A DNA stretch of 64,000 nt from Pirellulales bacterium (GTDB lineage Bacteria; Planctomycetota; Planctomycetia; Pirellulales; JADZDJ01), in assembly GCA_035656635.1 (NCBI GenBank), contig DASRSD010000145.1, positions 62,001-126,000 of the forward strand. The letters run 5' to 3'. Made by a program: the position numbers and the translations under genes. Within the stretch, counting starts at the first letter, position 1. The number at the start of each line of letters is the position of its first letter. Under the pieces are notes generated by a model. It made no database searches and was not told the DNA's origin. It worked only from the letters and a program-made list of their open reading frames with translations. Positions 1,550-9,254 of this stretch are shown here, in pieces.

Positions 1550-1936
1550 ATGGCTCGTCCCCGTGCCAAGGAATTAACCGAACGTGAATTGGAAGTCATG
1601 CAAATGTTTTGGAAGCACGGCGAGCTGAACGCCGTGGAAGCCCGCGAGAAGTTGGCGGCCGCTGGACTGGACCGGGCTTATACCACCATCGCCACGCTGA
1701 TCCGAATTTTGGTGGATAAGGAATGCTTGAGGCAACTACCGGGCAGCGAGCGGCCGTTTCTTTTTCGTCCCACACGCTCGCAGGACGAAGTTTCCGGGCG
1801 AATGCTGGCCGATGTCGTGGAGCGCGTGTTCCAAGGCTCGAGGGAACAGTTGTTGGTGCAACTACTCAAACAGAAAAAATTAACGGCCAAAGAGCGGGCC
1901 ACTTTGCAAGAACTCTTGAAGGAGCAAACGTCATGA
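1550..1936 (+). CDS. BlaI/MecI/CopY-family transcriptional repressor
   Basis: A 128-residue winged-helix repressor. 'LTERELEVMQMFWKHGELNA' at 8-27 and the recognition region 'AYTTIATLIRILVDKECL' match the DNA-binding half of the BlaI family. The C-terminal third, rich in Leu, Lys and Gln, fits the dimerisation helices where BlaR1-type proteases cut. A GGAG ribosome site precedes the ATG. Its stop overlaps the start of the M56 peptidase gene by four bases (ATGA), so the two are translationally coupled and form the usual repressor/receptor pair. In planctomycetes such pairs are widespread and are not necessarily tied to beta-lactam resistance. Confidence 0.9.
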   Translation: MARPRAKELTERELEVMQMFWKHGELNAVEAREKLAAAGLDRAYTTIATLIRILVDKECLRQLPGSERPFLFRPTRSQDEVSGRMLADVVERVFQGSREQLLVQLLKQKKLTAKERATLQELLKEQTS

Positions 1937-4900
1937 ACGCTTTAACCTCGGCAATTTTGTGGATGGCAGTGCAAGTGCTGTTGTTTTCGCTGGTTGGCGG
2001 TGCGGCGTTTGTGCTGTTACGCCGCCGTGGGCCCAGCGCTGCGGTCGCTTGCGCGGCCACGGTGTTAGCGCTCACCTTGCCACTCGTCTTCTGTTTGGCC
2101 AGTCCGTGGCCACAGTGGATCGGCACATCGGACAGCCGAATTTCGGCAACGCAGGCAAATGCTGGGCTTGCTCCGTCCACGATTCAAAATCAATCCTCGG
2201 ATGCGATCATTTCAGCGGCCGATAGCGCCAATGCAACGCACGGCTCGGTACTTTCGACGGTATCGAACTGGTGGCTGAAGGCGGTCGAATGGCTGCAACC
2301 TACGAGCAATTTCGCCAACGGAGAGAAATCCGCAGCGCCTATCTGGCAAATCGCGATGCTATGGGTATTGGCAACCGGCGTGAGCTTGAGTTTGGCTCGG
2401 CTGGCCGCCGGAATGTGGGCTGTTCATCGATTGCGCCACCGCTCGCAGCCGATTGACAATCCGGCACTGGAATCGACACTGCGAGAACTTTCGCAGCGGT
2501 TGAATGCGCCGACGGTGGAACTGCGTCACACCGAATGGTTGCGCTCCGCGGCCACGATTGGCTGGCGGCGTCCCATGTTGCTGTTGCCTGCCGATTGGTC
2601 TGGCTGGACCGAAACAGAGCGGCGGGTGGTCCTGGCTCACGAATTGGCACACGTCGCCCGGCGCGATTATTTCACCGCTTTGTTGGCGCAGTTGGTGTCG
2701 GCGATCCATTTTTATCAGCCGCTGGTGCTGTGGCTTAGCCGCCAATTGCGGGTGCAGCAAGAATTGGCCGCCGATGGGCAAGCCGCCGCCGTGACGGAAA
2801 ATCGACAAGCTTATCTCGCCACGCTGGCACAAATGGCCCTGCGGGCCGATGAACAGCCGGTCCCCTGGGCTGCGCGTGCATTTCTGCCGGGCACCAGCAT
2901 GCTCATCAAGCGCGTGGCGTGGCTCAAACGCAAGGGTCAAAGAACGGAAACATCGCTGGGCAGAACAGGCCGTTGGATTCTGGCAGCATGTATGGCGGCC
3001 ATTGCGCTAGGCGTGGCAGGCCTTCGTGGACCGAGAGATTCATTCACTCAGGTGGCCATGGCTGCGCCGGCCGACGATGCCAAGCAATCCGAAACCAAAA
3101 AAGACGCCGAGCGAGCTTGGGATGTTTCGCAGCCGCAGCCAGCGGTGTTGCGGAGCTTCCGGTTTGTGCCGTCGGAAGCAAAACTGGTCGTCGGTATTAA
3201 TCCGCATGAATTGGCGAAGACTGCATCGGCGGCAAAACCGATTGTGGACATGCTGGACAAGGAATTCGAAGGCAAAAACGGATTCAAGCTCACCGACATT
3301 GCCGACGTTGAGCTCATTTGGATGCACTCCACACAAGAGCCTGACAGGATTGTCATTCAAACCGAAAAGCCCATCGACTGGAAGGAAACGCTGCGGCGTA
3401 AGAATCCAGGCGATATGGAAATCCAACACCAGGGCGATCACGAGTATTACGTGCTGAAAGATAGCGCAGATTTTGGGCCATGCGTGTACCCGGTCGACAA
3501 CCGAACAATTGTTGCCGGCAGCGAAAAGCAAATTCAAACGTTCATTCGCGGCGGCGAAAAATTGATGGACGCTAGCGCGTTTCCTGAGTTTCCAGCCAGT
3601 ACGTTGGCGATTCGGGCGGAAATATCGATTATGAAGCCGATCACGGAATTGGACGCCCTGTCGGCGGCGATGTTTTTGCCGCTCATGGAGCATGTGAAGG
3701 TGGGACGGGGGTTTGTCGGCGCCGAACCGCCGGGGACCAACGGCGTCGGCTTCCACGCACTACTCGAATGTGATTCGGCCGACGGCGCCCAGCAGGTTGC
3801 CAAAACACTGGAAGTGGCGCGGACCATCGTTTTGAATATGATCCAGATGAAAATACAAGCCTGGCGGCAAACGGAAGGACAGACGGCCGACAAGGAACAA
3901 GCGGCCCAGATCAATGGGTTGTTCGACTTACTCACCAAAGCGCTGAGCGATTGCAAGATTAACGCAGCCGGCAGCGTGGCACAAGTTTCGGCAAATGTGG
4001 AGCTGGGGCCGGCACTGGTCGCCGGATTTTTAATGCCGGCGATGGCGGCCGCGAAAGAGGCGGCCATGCGACAGCAAACCATGACCAATATGAAACAGTT
4101 GGGGCTGGCGATGTTTGAGTATGCCGACAAGCACAATCACTTTCCCCCTGCGGCTATCGTTGGGCCAGACGGCAAAACAAAACATAGCTGGCGCGTGGAG
4201 GTACTTCCGCTGTTGAATACGGTCGAAGCGAACACCGTTTATAAGGAATATCACTTCGACGAACCGTGGGATAGCGAACACAACAAAGCATTGTTGGCGA
4301 AAATGCCGGCCGTATTGCGCGATCCGCATGAACCGGAAGGAAGCACCGACGCTTGCTATTTTATGCCGACCGGCAAGGGAATGATTGGCGGAAGTGAAAC
4401 CGGAACACGCCTTGAAGACATCACAGACGGCACGGCAGTGACGATTGCGCTGGTCGAAGCCAAGCGCGATATTCCCTGGACCAAGCCGGAGGATATTGAA
4501 ATCGACGCCGATTCCACCAAACCGCTGCCGAAATTTGGCGGACATTTGGCGGACGCTACAGGTTCCAACAATATTTACGCGGCGGTCTTTGCCGACGGGC
4601 ATGTGCAAATTATGTCCAACGAAGCCGATCCGAAATGGGTTCGAGCGGCATTTACCATTAGCGGCGGTGAGCCATTAGATGGAGGAAGACTATCGGCCCC
4701 GCAAGAACAGAAGCGGCTAACGCCGGATTTGAAGCCGGTTAATCCGCAGTCCACGCCGGTTCCGCCTGGAAGTGGTTCGAAAATCGATCGGCCAAAGCTG
4801 GAATTTCGTTTGGCGGAAGCCGAACCAGGAGAAGGACTAACGGAAGCCGCGCTGCCCGGCGGAACGGAAAAAGTTTATTTGCATCTCCAGGCGGAATTGA

Positions 4901-5172
4901 GCAAAGACGACATAGCGTCGATCCAACTCATGCCAAACGAAAATGGAACAGAAGGGATTTCCATTACGTTGACCGAGGCGGGAGGGGAAAAAATGGAAGC
5001 CCTAACGGCCGCCAACCTCTTAAAAAGATTGGCAGTTTTAGTTGACGGCAAAGTGCTGGTTGCGCCGAGGATTCAATCCAAAATTTCGGATAAGATGCAG
5101 CTCACCGGCAACTTCAGCAAAGAAGAACTAGAGCAGCTTTCAAAAACCTTGGGCGGGGATCCAAGGCATTGA
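1933..5172 (+). CDS. BlaR1-like M56 peptidase fused to DUF1559-like and SecD-like segments
   Basis: A 1079-residue membrane protein. The ATG at 1933 overlaps the repressor stop; a longer frame reading back into the repressor is rejected. Residues 1-360 look like an M56/BlaR1 sensor-protease: several hydrophobic helices, zinc motif HELAH at 236-240, and the third-ligand helix 'ELAADGQ' from 277. Residues about 400-720 are an uncharacterised extracytoplasmic region. Around 720-890 the 'MKQLGLAMFEYADKHNHFPP' stretch through 'FADGHVQ' resembles the DUF1559/SBP_bac_10 fold of planctomycetes. The last about 120 residues, with 'VLVAPRIQSKI' near 1040, resemble the SecD periplasmic P1 head. Expected role: sense an external signal and cleave the partner repressor. 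The C-terminal additions make it over twice the length of ordinary BlaR1. Confidence 0.85.
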   Translation: MNALTSAILWMAVQVLLFSLVGGAAFVLLRRRGPSAAVACAATVLALTLPLVFCLASPWPQWIGTSDSRISATQANAGLAPSTIQNQSSDAIISAADSANATHGSVLSTVSNWWLKAVEWLQPTSNFANGEKSAAPIWQIAMLWVLATGVSLSLARLAAGMWAVHRLRHRSQPIDNPALESTLRELSQRLNAPTVELRHTEWLRSAATIGWRRPMLLLPADWSGWTETERRVVLAHELAHVARRDYFTALLAQLVSAIHFYQPLVLWLSRQLRVQQELAADGQAAAVTENRQAYLATLAQMALRADEQPVPWAARAFLPGTSMLIKRVAWLKRKGQRTETSLGRTGRWILAACMAAIALGVAGLRGPRDSFTQVAMAAPADDAKQSETKKDAERAWDVSQPQPAVLRSFRFVPSEAKLVVGINPHELAKTASAAKPIVDMLDKEFEGKNGFKLTDIADVELIWMHSTQEPDRIVIQTEKPIDWKETLRRKNPGDMEIQHQGDHEYYVLKDSADFGPCVYPVDNRTIVAGSEKQIQTFIRGGEKLMDASAFPEFPASTLAIRAEISIMKPITELDALSAAMFLPLMEHVKVGRGFVGAEPPGTNGVGFHALLECDSADGAQQVAKTLEVARTIVLNMIQMKIQAWRQTEGQTADKEQAAQINGLFDLLTKALSDCKINAAGSVAQVSANVELGPALVAGFLMPAMAAAKEAAMRQQTMTNMKQLGLAMFEYADKHNHFPPAAIVGPDGKTKHSWRVEVLPLLNTVEANTVYKEYHFDEPWDSEHNKALLAKMPAVLRDPHEPEGSTDACYFMPTGKGMIGGSETGTRLEDITDGTAVTIALVEAKRDIPWTKPEDIEIDADSTKPLPKFGGHLADATGSNNIYAAVFADGHVQIMSNEADPKWVRAAFTISGGEPLDGGRLSAPQEQKRLTPDLKPVNPQSTPVPPGSGSKIDRPKLEFRLAEAEPGEGLTEAALPGGTEKVYLHLQAELSKDDIASIQLMPNENGTEGISITLTEAGGEKMEALTAANLLKRLAVLVDGKVLVAPRIQSKISDKMQLTGNFSKEELEQLSKTLGGDPRH

Positions 5173-5970: not shown

Positions 5971-7299
5971 TCATCGGGATGAGAATCGATATTTTGGATT
6001 CCGCACCACGAAAATCCACAGTGTAACGGCAGCCGCCATCAGCAGCACGCTGGCGATTTGTGAGATGGTCATATGCGTGAGGCCCACGAAGGGTTCGTCG
6101 GTGCGAATGGCTTCTTCCAGGATCCGCATCAACGGGTAAATGGTGATCATCAGCGCCGTGACTTCGCCCGCATGTCGGCGAAACGGATACCAGGCCAGCA
6201 AAAATAGCGTGAGCAACAGGGCTCCCAACGCGCTGTACAACTGCGTGGGATGCACCGGCAGGCTGCGCGGCGGCAGCGGCGGCGGCGTGGTCAATGTCCA
6301 AACCTGCGATTTCGGTTTGCCGGCGGCATCGATGGCGTGGAACGTAACTTTCGTTCCAGGCTGTTGAATATTCGCCAGTGCCTCCTGCGCTTCAGCCACC
6401 GAAAGCGCCGTTGTTTCGTTCCCTGAGTATTCCTGCGGCCGTTTGGGAGCCGGCGGTTCGACGTAAATGCCCGTCAAACGATCGCCCGCATGTAGCCCGG
6501 CCTGTGCCACCGGGGAGCTTTCATCGAGCGATTCGATTACTGCCGGTGCAAACGGATTCGGTTCAAAGTGAATTCCGTCCAGAACCAGCTGTCCGCGGTC
6601 AGCCTGGTTCATGTACGCCGGCGAGCCGATTGGAAAAGTTACCCCCCAGGGACGATCGCACATTCCGCCGTAACAGCAGCCGTTTAGGAAACATCCGATG
6701 CGCCCCAATGCCAGGCCAAGAGTCAAACTGGGGGCAATGATGTCGGCAAATTTCAGCATCGGCAACTTGTACCGGGCAAAGAACAGCCCAGCGGCCACGC
6801 ATCCGCCGGCAAATGCTCCGTATACCACCAACCCGCCTTGTGTGTAATTGACGACGGCGATAATCGTCGCCCGCAATGTGTCTTTTTGAAATTGGGTATC
6901 CCAATACTCGATCACGTAAAACAACCTCGCACCCAGGATCGCAGAAATGCACATCCACAGTGCGAGCGAATAAACGAGTTCGGGATCGAAGCCTTCCCGT
7001 TTGGCACGGTACACGGCCAGCGCCACGCCGGCTACTACGCCCAGAAAAACCATGACCCCGTAGCCACGGACCGGCAACCCGGCATCATCCGATAGCGCCG
7101 GCAGCACCCACGCCAGGACCGCCCCCAGCACCAACATGATGGGCAACTCGTTCCACACGGCGCTACTCCATCCGTGGCGAAAGACAAGCCAACCGACACG
7201 TGCTGCGCAAATCAATGCCCAAACCGCCAGCAGAATTCCAAACCCCAACAGCGGCACGCCGCCCACCGTATTTGGAATGTGAAACAGGATGGTTCGCAT
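5971..7299 (-). CDS. lgt: Prolipoprotein diacylglyceryl transferase with inserted PDZ-like domain
   Basis: A 442-residue inner-membrane enzyme that moves diacylglycerol from phosphatidylglycerol to the lipobox cysteine of lipoprotein precursors. The signature 'GRIGCFLNGCCYGG' is near residues 198-211 and 'HPTQLYSALGAL' near 347-358, both in the right order with hydrophobic helices around them. Bacterial Lgt is usually about 260-300 residues. The excess is partly an N-terminal membrane extension, and partly about 100 residues between the two motifs that carry 'SPVAQAGLHAGDRLTGI', a PDZ-type carboxylate-loop pattern. The gene is the third of a folK-panC-lgt operon, with only three bases between panC and lgt. 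Several predicted lipoproteins in this window would be its substrates. Confidence 0.92.
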   Translation of the reverse strand: MRTILFHIPNTVGGVPLLGFGILLAVWALICAARVGWLVFRHGWSSAVWNELPIMLVLGAVLAWVLPALSDDAGLPVRGYGVMVFLGVVAGVALAVYRAKREGFDPELVYSLALWMCISAILGARLFYVIEYWDTQFQKDTLRATIIAVVNYTQGGLVVYGAFAGGCVAAGLFFARYKLPMLKFADIIAPSLTLGLALGRIGCFLNGCCYGGMCDRPWGVTFPIGSPAYMNQADRGQLVLDGIHFEPNPFAPAVIESLDESSPVAQAGLHAGDRLTGIYVEPPAPKRPQEYSGNETTALSVAEAQEALANIQQPGTKVTFHAIDAAGKPKSQVWTLTTPPPLPPRSLPVHPTQLYSALGALLLTLFLLAWYPFRRHAGEVTALMITIYPLMRILEEAIRTDEPFVGLTHMTISQIASVLLMAAAVTLWIFVVRNPKYRFSSR

Positions 7300-8231: not shown

Positions 8232-9254
8232 CTACGCCATTGCTTGAATCGCCGCGGTCAATTCAGCCTCCGCATGCGCTAAACTTCCGCCTTCCAGCCA
8301 CAATACGGGGCCCAGCCCGGGACGGCCGGCTCGGGCACGCCGAGCTTCGTTCAATCGATGCCACAGTGCTACGGCCACGCTACTCGACTGCTTTTGCTCC
8401 GAAGTTTGGCTCTCGTGGAACTGCTGCGAAGTCGCTTCGTATACCACTAATAATTTGGGCGGCACAATGGACGCAACCAACGATTGCCACGCATCGGTCA
8501 TTGCACCGGGCCATAACGCGTCGCCAATGGCCAGTAAATCTTCGATCCAAAACGGGGTGATCGCGCCTGGTTGGCGGGAGCCAAGCCACCGCTTACGATC
8601 GAGCAGCGTTGCCTGCTGGCGAAGGAATTCTATCGTTTGTGATAATCCCAGACTAGCCAAACCACCGAATGGTGAAGCGTCGTCGCCTTCGGCAAAGTCC
8701 ACAAGCTTCCAGCCAACTTTCGCTGCCACAGCATGCGCTAGTTGCCGCGTGGCCTGATGCACGGAGCCGCTGATCGCCACATACGGCTGGGCAAATTGCA
8801 CATGTTTCAGCAATTGAGCAACCGTCCAGCCAATGATTGGGTGCCGCATTTCGCTGGCCACTTCGCTGGCCGGCTGAAGCACAAAGCGGCGAAAGGCCAT
8901 TCGCGGATGAGGCAATTGCAAACCCGGCGTGTGCTGCACGACATCGTCATACAGCAACAAATCAAGATCGATGGTCCGCGGGCCAGAAAGCTCGGCACGC
9001 ACGCGCCCCAGAGTTTGTTCTATTTCCAGCAGCCGCGCCAACAATAACTCTGACGGCAGTGAAGTTTCCATCACGGCCGCGCCATTCAGAAATTCCGGTT
9101 GACCCGGCGGCCCGCCAATGGCATGCGTGGCATGCCAGGCGCTATGCCGCAATTCCGATACGCACGGTGTAGTTCGCAACATTTGCACGGCGCGGCCGAG
9201 TAATTGTCGCCGATCGCCTAGATTGGAACCCAAACCGATCAGGGCAGAGGCCAT
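8232..9254 (-). CDS. folK: HPPK (FolK) fused to a deoxynucleoside-kinase-like domain
   Basis: A 340-residue two-part protein. Residues 1-165 are 6-hydroxymethyl-7,8-dihydropterin pyrophosphokinase, the folate step before dihydropteroate synthase: 'ALIGLGSNLGDR' at the start, 'FLNGAAVMET' and the signature 'GPRTIDLDLLLYDD' near 90-103. Residues about 175-340 resemble deoxyadenosine/deoxyguanosine kinases in layout: a beta strand and glycine loop, then 'FWIEDLLAIGDALWPG' like the conserved lid/substrate helices, then 'PPKLLVVYEATSQQ' like the 'PDLVIYLDAS' strand. The ATP-binding P-loop is degenerate, reading 'ISGSVHQATRQLA' where GxxGxGKTT would be expected. HPPK-dNK fusions are known in other bacteria; here the second domain is probably not a kinase. 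First gene of the folK-panC-lgt operon. Confidence 0.88.
   Translation of the reverse strand: MASALIGLGSNLGDRRQLLGRAVQMLRTTPCVSELRHSAWHATHAIGGPPGQPEFLNGAAVMETSLPSELLLARLLEIEQTLGRVRAELSGPRTIDLDLLLYDDVVQHTPGLQLPHPRMAFRRFVLQPASEVASEMRHPIIGWTVAQLLKHVQFAQPYVAISGSVHQATRQLAHAVAAKVGWKLVDFAEGDDASPFGGLASLGLSQTIEFLRQQATLLDRKRWLGSRQPGAITPFWIEDLLAIGDALWPGAMTDAWQSLVASIVPPKLLVVYEATSQQFHESQTSEQKQSSSVAVALWHRLNEARRARAGRPGLGPVLWLEGGSLAHAEAELTAAIQAMA

Follow-up and report, generated by a model that had tools for sequence, protein, structure and literature searches.

Prolipoprotein diacylglyceryl transferase (Lgt) is best known structurally from Escherichia coli (5azb/5azc). The enzyme has a periplasmic head domain (PMC4728403; PMC13251419), which reportedly matters for function and, together with arm-2 and H103, for specificity towards protein substrates (PMC13251419); a structure of Lgt with preprolipoprotein is still called for (PMC13251419). 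PDZ domains are found on HtrA-type proteases (DegP, DegQ, DegS), which are soluble or single-pass, and on S2P proteases (RseP; A. aeolicus aq_1964), membrane-embedded enzymes that carry a periplasmic PDZ domain, often one of two, between transmembrane helices. The only PDZ-Lgt met in the literature searched was an engineered E. coli fusion (PMC9893748), in which a PDZ domain was joined to Lgt behind an export signal; the domain was mammalian and was placed at the Lgt end by design, as an enzyme scaffold. The available part of PMC12419801 did not describe a PDZ-Lgt, and neither "transferase" nor "lipoprotein" occurred in the searched text of the PDZ survey PMC6411480.

The window analyzed here, a stretch of 64,000 nucleotides from a bacterium of the order Pirellulales (Planctomycetota), encodes an Lgt with a PDZ domain embedded in its sequence. 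The protein resembled E. coli Lgt in core profile and sequence match and in the signature Arg and the R...E..R motif, and its insert lies at the head position. That site is about 25 residues long in E. coli, whereas the window protein has about 100 more than its PDZ-less relatives; the two also differ in that the window protein has Cys at the N146 and E151 positions, Ser at E202 and Tyr at H103. With the HtrA-type proteases it shared the predicted PDZ fold, the order of strands and helices and the place of the loop, the host protein here being a polytopic transferase. The S2P proteases gave the best profile match and share the placing of a PDZ domain within a membrane enzyme; they are proteases, and kinship of the catalytic parts is not claimed. 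Lgt and PDZ are known families, and their combination here is provisionally regarded as new: no report of a natural PDZ-bearing Lgt was found in the literature searched, which left most subscription papers and the domain databases outside.

The lgt gene and the position of its insert

The 442-aa open reading frame was matched in two stretches by Pfam LGT (PF01790; E 8.1e-56; 189.5 bits against a curated cut-off of 24.9) and by NCBIfam TIGR00544 (123.5 bits against 118.9), and among solved structures its best match was E. coli Lgt 5azb. It was positioned after panC and an HPPK (folK-type) gene; no other gene with a Pfam LGT match was found in the genome, both matches falling within this one. 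Alignment to 5azb located the signature-motif Arg as well as the later R...E..R motif. The latter, with K allowed in the last position, was present in 87 of 88 Lgts from the order, and the core is thus considered intact. By profile and motifs the protein is an otherwise ordinary Lgt, with predicted transferase activity.

Several further features were recorded at the locus. The N-terminal extension resembles a copy of TM1, with GVPLLGFGI early and GLPVRGYGV at the start of the core; both TM1-like copies were found by a loose motif in 29/88 Lgts of the order. The position of E. coli H103 (residue ~160 of the window Lgt) was Tyr (70) or Phe (18) and never His in these 88 proteins, which bears on the debate over H103 as catalytic base (PMC13251419). 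Two nearby genes are listed in Table 1. The 1149-aa product has an odd architecture (Pfam E 1.1e-24 for M56, 1.7e-23 for DUF1559/SBP_bac_10 and 9.4e-18 for the SecDF P1-head-like domain), and about 200 residues of the 340-aa protein had no Pfam match at E<=0.01.

The linker between GRIGCFLNG and HPTQLY measured 142 aa, compared with 44 aa in locus L034 (genome G182, same family) and 35-47 aa in seven Lgts of family f79. Its flanks match those of PDZ-less Lgts (WAVTFP..SPAY..Q...G on the N-terminal side, SLPV on the C-terminal side), which sets the additional stretch at roughly residues 237-338, about 100 residues. These lengths bear out the sequence-only reading, which had described an extra stretch of about 100 residues between the two conserved motifs. 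The interval then given, 6285-6570, covers most of the insert; as the domain begins near residue 237 (6591), it leaves out the first strand as well as the loop that probably binds the carboxylate. The insert occupies the site of E. coli Lgt residues ~169-193 (alignment to 5azb), and by homology to that enzyme it is predicted to lie in the periplasmic head, above the membrane-embedded active site.

Table 1. Features of the lgt locus (positions in the window; residues of the 442-aa product)
Feature	Positions	Strand	Residues	Description	Basis
lgt	5971-7299	-	1-442	Prolipoprotein diacylglyceryl transferase, embedded PDZ domain	Pfam, NCBIfam and 5azb matches
N-terminal extension	6706-7299	-	1-198	Resembles TM1 copy	Motif reading
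GRIGCFLNG	6679-6705	-	199-207	Start of Lgt signature motif; R200 = E. coli R143	Alignment to 5azb
PDZ domain	6286-6591	-	~237-338	Insert	Pfam on relatives, PDB profile search, models, shuffle test
LDGI	6571-6582	-	240-243	Probable carboxylate-binding loop	
SPVAQAGLHAGDRL	6475-6516	-	262-275	PDZ signature around alpha-A; motif of the sequence-only reading	
Extra loop in PDZ	6403-6447	-	285-299	Columns occupied in 4-12% of 98 linkers	
Predicted alpha-B helix	6373-6399	-	301-309	One side of expected ligand groove	Models
HPTQLY	6235-6252	-	350-355	Lgt motif after insert	
1149-aa ORF	1723-5172	+		M56 (BlaR1-type) peptidase, DUF1559/SBP_bac_10 segment, C-terminal SecDF P1-head-like domain	Pfam
340-aa protein	8232-9254	-		First 133 residues HPPK	Pfam

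Identity of the inserted domain

Searched alone, the window insert gave weak scores with three PDZ models (E 0.11-0.21), all below the curated Pfam cut-offs (PDZ_6 12.7 bits against 27; PDZ_2 12.7 against 27; PDZ 12.4 against 23.2), probably in part because of its rare 15-residue loop. The related proteins were more informative. Insert-bearing linkers (98) were aligned (alignment A1), leaving out L131, the end of which had been wrongly cut, and L136, which is not PDZ. At E<=0.01, 80 of these linkers matched PDZ_6, 74 PDZ and 69 PDZ_2, and none of the 45 linkers without the insert matched any PDZ model. A profile of A1 matched 233 distinct PDB sequences at E<=0.01, led by the PDZ domain of the A. 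aeolicus S2P homologue (3e-14) and by DegP (3.1e-14); the best 60 of the 233 are taken to be PDZ-bearing proteins. An HMM of relatives' inserts, from which the window and same-genus copies had been left out, scored the window insert at 42.7 bits, and the best shuffle at 7.9 bits (2000 shuffles were made; 1982 output rows, the real insert included).

Structure prediction of the insert had been suggested together with the sequence-only reading, and neither a disordered loop nor a non-PDZ fold was obtained. Modelled alone, the insert reached pLDDT 75.8 and pTM 0.67 with a PDZ-like order of strands and helices. Foldseek with this model gave a best E of 4.2e-4, the best 50 PDB matches listed being HtrA, Deg, Prc/Ctp and related PDZ chains, and VIA-align against Rv0983 gave Z 9.6 with an rmsd of 2.5 over 83 residues. 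The full-length AlphaFold2 model, made from only two sequences, was poor (mean pLDDT 54) and gave no Foldseek match at E<=0.001, 5azb coming first (E 7.3e-3) and then DegQ; the insert was better within it (pLDDT 56-83 in ten-residue blocks over residues 241-340). The predicted fold thus agrees with both the family profile and the profile search of the PDB on a PDZ-like domain inside Lgt, as first proposed, and by this profile and model evidence the insert is almost certainly a PDZ domain of the HtrA/S2P periplasmic type.

The motif on which that proposal had rested, SPVAQAGLHAGDRL, is a PDZ signature; its assignment as the carboxylate loop was rejected, since family alignment, model and structural alignment all place it around helix alpha-A. 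The carboxylate-binding loop is probably LDGI. In the structural alignment, model residue 14 (L240) fell on DegP 264 and DegS 258, which we take to be the ELGI and YIGI loops, whereas an HMM alignment to DegP put G242 three residues past the loop glycine. Across the insert family the stretch often reads like LYLHGLKF. Among the 98 aligned linkers G242 was kept in 97 (G268 in 84, G272 in 86), position 243 was hydrophobic in 100% and position 245 in 97%; in the middle of the loop, where the window has D, a hydrophobic residue stood in only 54%.

Distribution and evolutionary history

A search with PF01790 gave a match in 144 of 149 genomes of the phylum, in 114 of 117 genomes of the order and in 146 of 148 genomes of the class. 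The 211 loci yielded a count of 144 Lgts that carry both motifs, the duplicate L002 (= L001) being left out; 99 had the insert and 45 did not. L131 was still counted as insert-bearing in these order and class counts and in the tree labels. Five loci (L051, L100, L102, L108, L109) are absent from the counts because the motif script missed or rejected them; by eye, all of these save L100 had a long linker or PDZ-like letters. Loci without a GC-type signature (e.g. L003-L015, L064-L071) lay outside the script motif and are not among the 144; no PDZ-like stretch was seen in the translated parts inspected.

The insert was present in 80 of 88 Lgts of the order, the eight without it being L034 and seven Lgts of family f79. 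In the order search, each of the 16 f79 genomes had a contiguous LGT match of only 750-789 bases. Elsewhere in the class it was read in families f92 (12/12), f95 (4/4), f94 (1/1) and f93 (1/3 loci, L112), counts that are not frequencies because loci were picked for long or split matches, and it was absent from the Lgts of f91 (0/20) and f3 (0/4). A survey of planctomycete Lgts, also suggested at the outset, finds the insert recurring through most of the order and, elsewhere in the class, in four further families. No PDZ domain was found by eye or by the Pfam control among Lgts read elsewhere in the phylum. The idea that long Lgt linkers are PDZ domains throughout the phylum was rejected: long linkers of, for example, f23, f30, f40, f43, f46, f66 and f71 were un-PDZ-like by eye, and the longer linkers of L136 (f46), L146 and L149 (f71), L150 (f66) and L197 (f24) had no PDZ match in the Pfam control. 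The domain was shortened or degraded in some members (L048, L098, L152, L158, L159), and part of family f78 had shortened domains.

Two kinds of additional Lgt-like matches were noted. Many genomes of the order (e.g. G112, G171, G243) had a second, compact match of weaker score (profile ~13-238, ~630-735 bases), too short for a PDZ insert. In genome G182, a 125-aa ORF (L213:1429-1806, minus strand) represents only the C-terminal part of an Lgt.

In a tree of Lgt cores from which the linkers had been removed, the insert was strongly clustered, with at least five changes, two of them forced by the starred branches. L034 grouped with the genus of the window (SH-aLRT 99) and shares the HPPK-panC-lgt locus, HPPK-like and pantoate-ligase-like letters being read in one translated frame before lgt; the PDZ domain was therefore most likely lost in the L034 lineage. 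Family f79 was nested, with moderate support, within the order that bears the PDZ domain. By AU test, neither a single clade of all PDZ rows of the order (p 0.27) nor one of those plus f79 (p 0.32) was rejected, so that the inferred losses rest more on kinship, taxonomy and synteny than on the lgt gene tree.

Scored with the profile of the order, the f92-f95 inserts had a median of 43.2 bits (n=17), compared with 23.1 bits (n=31) for PDZ frames of the own genome; the best of these frames (~49 bits) overlapped the insert scores. In the reverse profile test the two sets did not differ (30.0, n=80; 31.7, n=30). The insert may have been gained once or twice in the class, and these scores fit either.

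Possible roles of the PDZ domain

PDZ domains commonly bind the C termini of partner proteins. The preferred reading, to which we assign a probability of about 0.4, is that the PDZ domain in the Lgt head may serve as a docking module for preprolipoprotein peptides, both an open groove and a precursor ligand being presumed. The domain would bind an extended peptide of the translocated precursor, either its C-terminal tail or an unstructured tether, in a groove bounded by the LDGI loop on one side and alpha-B on the other; the precursor would thereby be held or selected at the cavity mouth. The position of the insert in the head, together with published head-domain swaps (PMC13251419), makes it plausible that specific lipoprotein precursors or partners are recruited through their C termini, as the sequence-only reading had suggested. 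Recognition of a C terminus would demand complete export of the precursor beforehand, which counts against docking.

The ligand could instead be another protein, such as an export chaperone, a translocon-associated protein or a protease, its recruitment coupling lipidation to export or quality control. Partner binding of this kind is typical of the domain, and the 33 PDZ_6 matches in the genome, in a phylum reported to be rich in PDZ proteins (PMC6411480), make PDZ-based envelope networks plausible. A candidate partner was not found, however. The C termini of E. coli LspA and Lnt are cytoplasmic, which makes the next enzymes of the pathway improbable as C-terminal ligands, and on balance recruitment of a partner seems rather unlikely.

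Somewhat less likely still is that the domain is a tolerated structural insertion, enlarging a variable head and slowly decaying. Its absence from the f79 Lgts read and from G182, and the shortened domains in part of f78, agree with decay, as does its rate: in 12 pairs for which both dN/dS values were computable, the insert/core ratio was 0.8-4.6 and the insert was the faster in 11 (0.193 in the PDZ domain and 0.145 in the core for the window pair). Against decay stand retention in 80/88 Lgts of the order, an insert dN/dS of 0.04-0.65 in the 14 of 16 close pairs that were computable, and the loop glycine in 97/98. By these estimates the insert is held by purifying selection, yet is less constrained than the enzyme core. 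Being missing from eight of 88 Lgts in the order and faster than the core, it is probably not needed for catalysis; the Lgts of f79 and G182, which lack it, suggest that the basic reaction can proceed without it.

A steric gate over the cavity, without specific peptide binding, is the least likely of the three alternatives: although the profile found its top PDB match in the PDZ tandem of an RseP homologue, and in RseP the periplasmic tandem reportedly acts as a size-exclusion filter ahead of an active site within the membrane (PMC7728848), a gate has no obvious need for a near-invariant loop glycine (which may be structural), Lgt has to accept many precursors differing in size, and the full-length model, with its low mean pLDDT, is not good enough to place the domain over the cavity mouth.

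Docking of precursor peptides remains the preferred reading. PDZ domains give selectivity or regulation in DegS and RseP, and by analogy much of the class might possess a two-module Lgt, the PDZ head of which would read peptides of precursors (or of stress-exposed partners) and make the first step of maturation selective or regulated; this extension is a doubtful one. In a phylum with an unusual envelope, how Lgt recognizes the protein part of its substrate becomes addressable through a natural, separable head domain of the peptide-binding type, for which L034, a PDZ-less counterpart from the same locus and family, provides a natural control.
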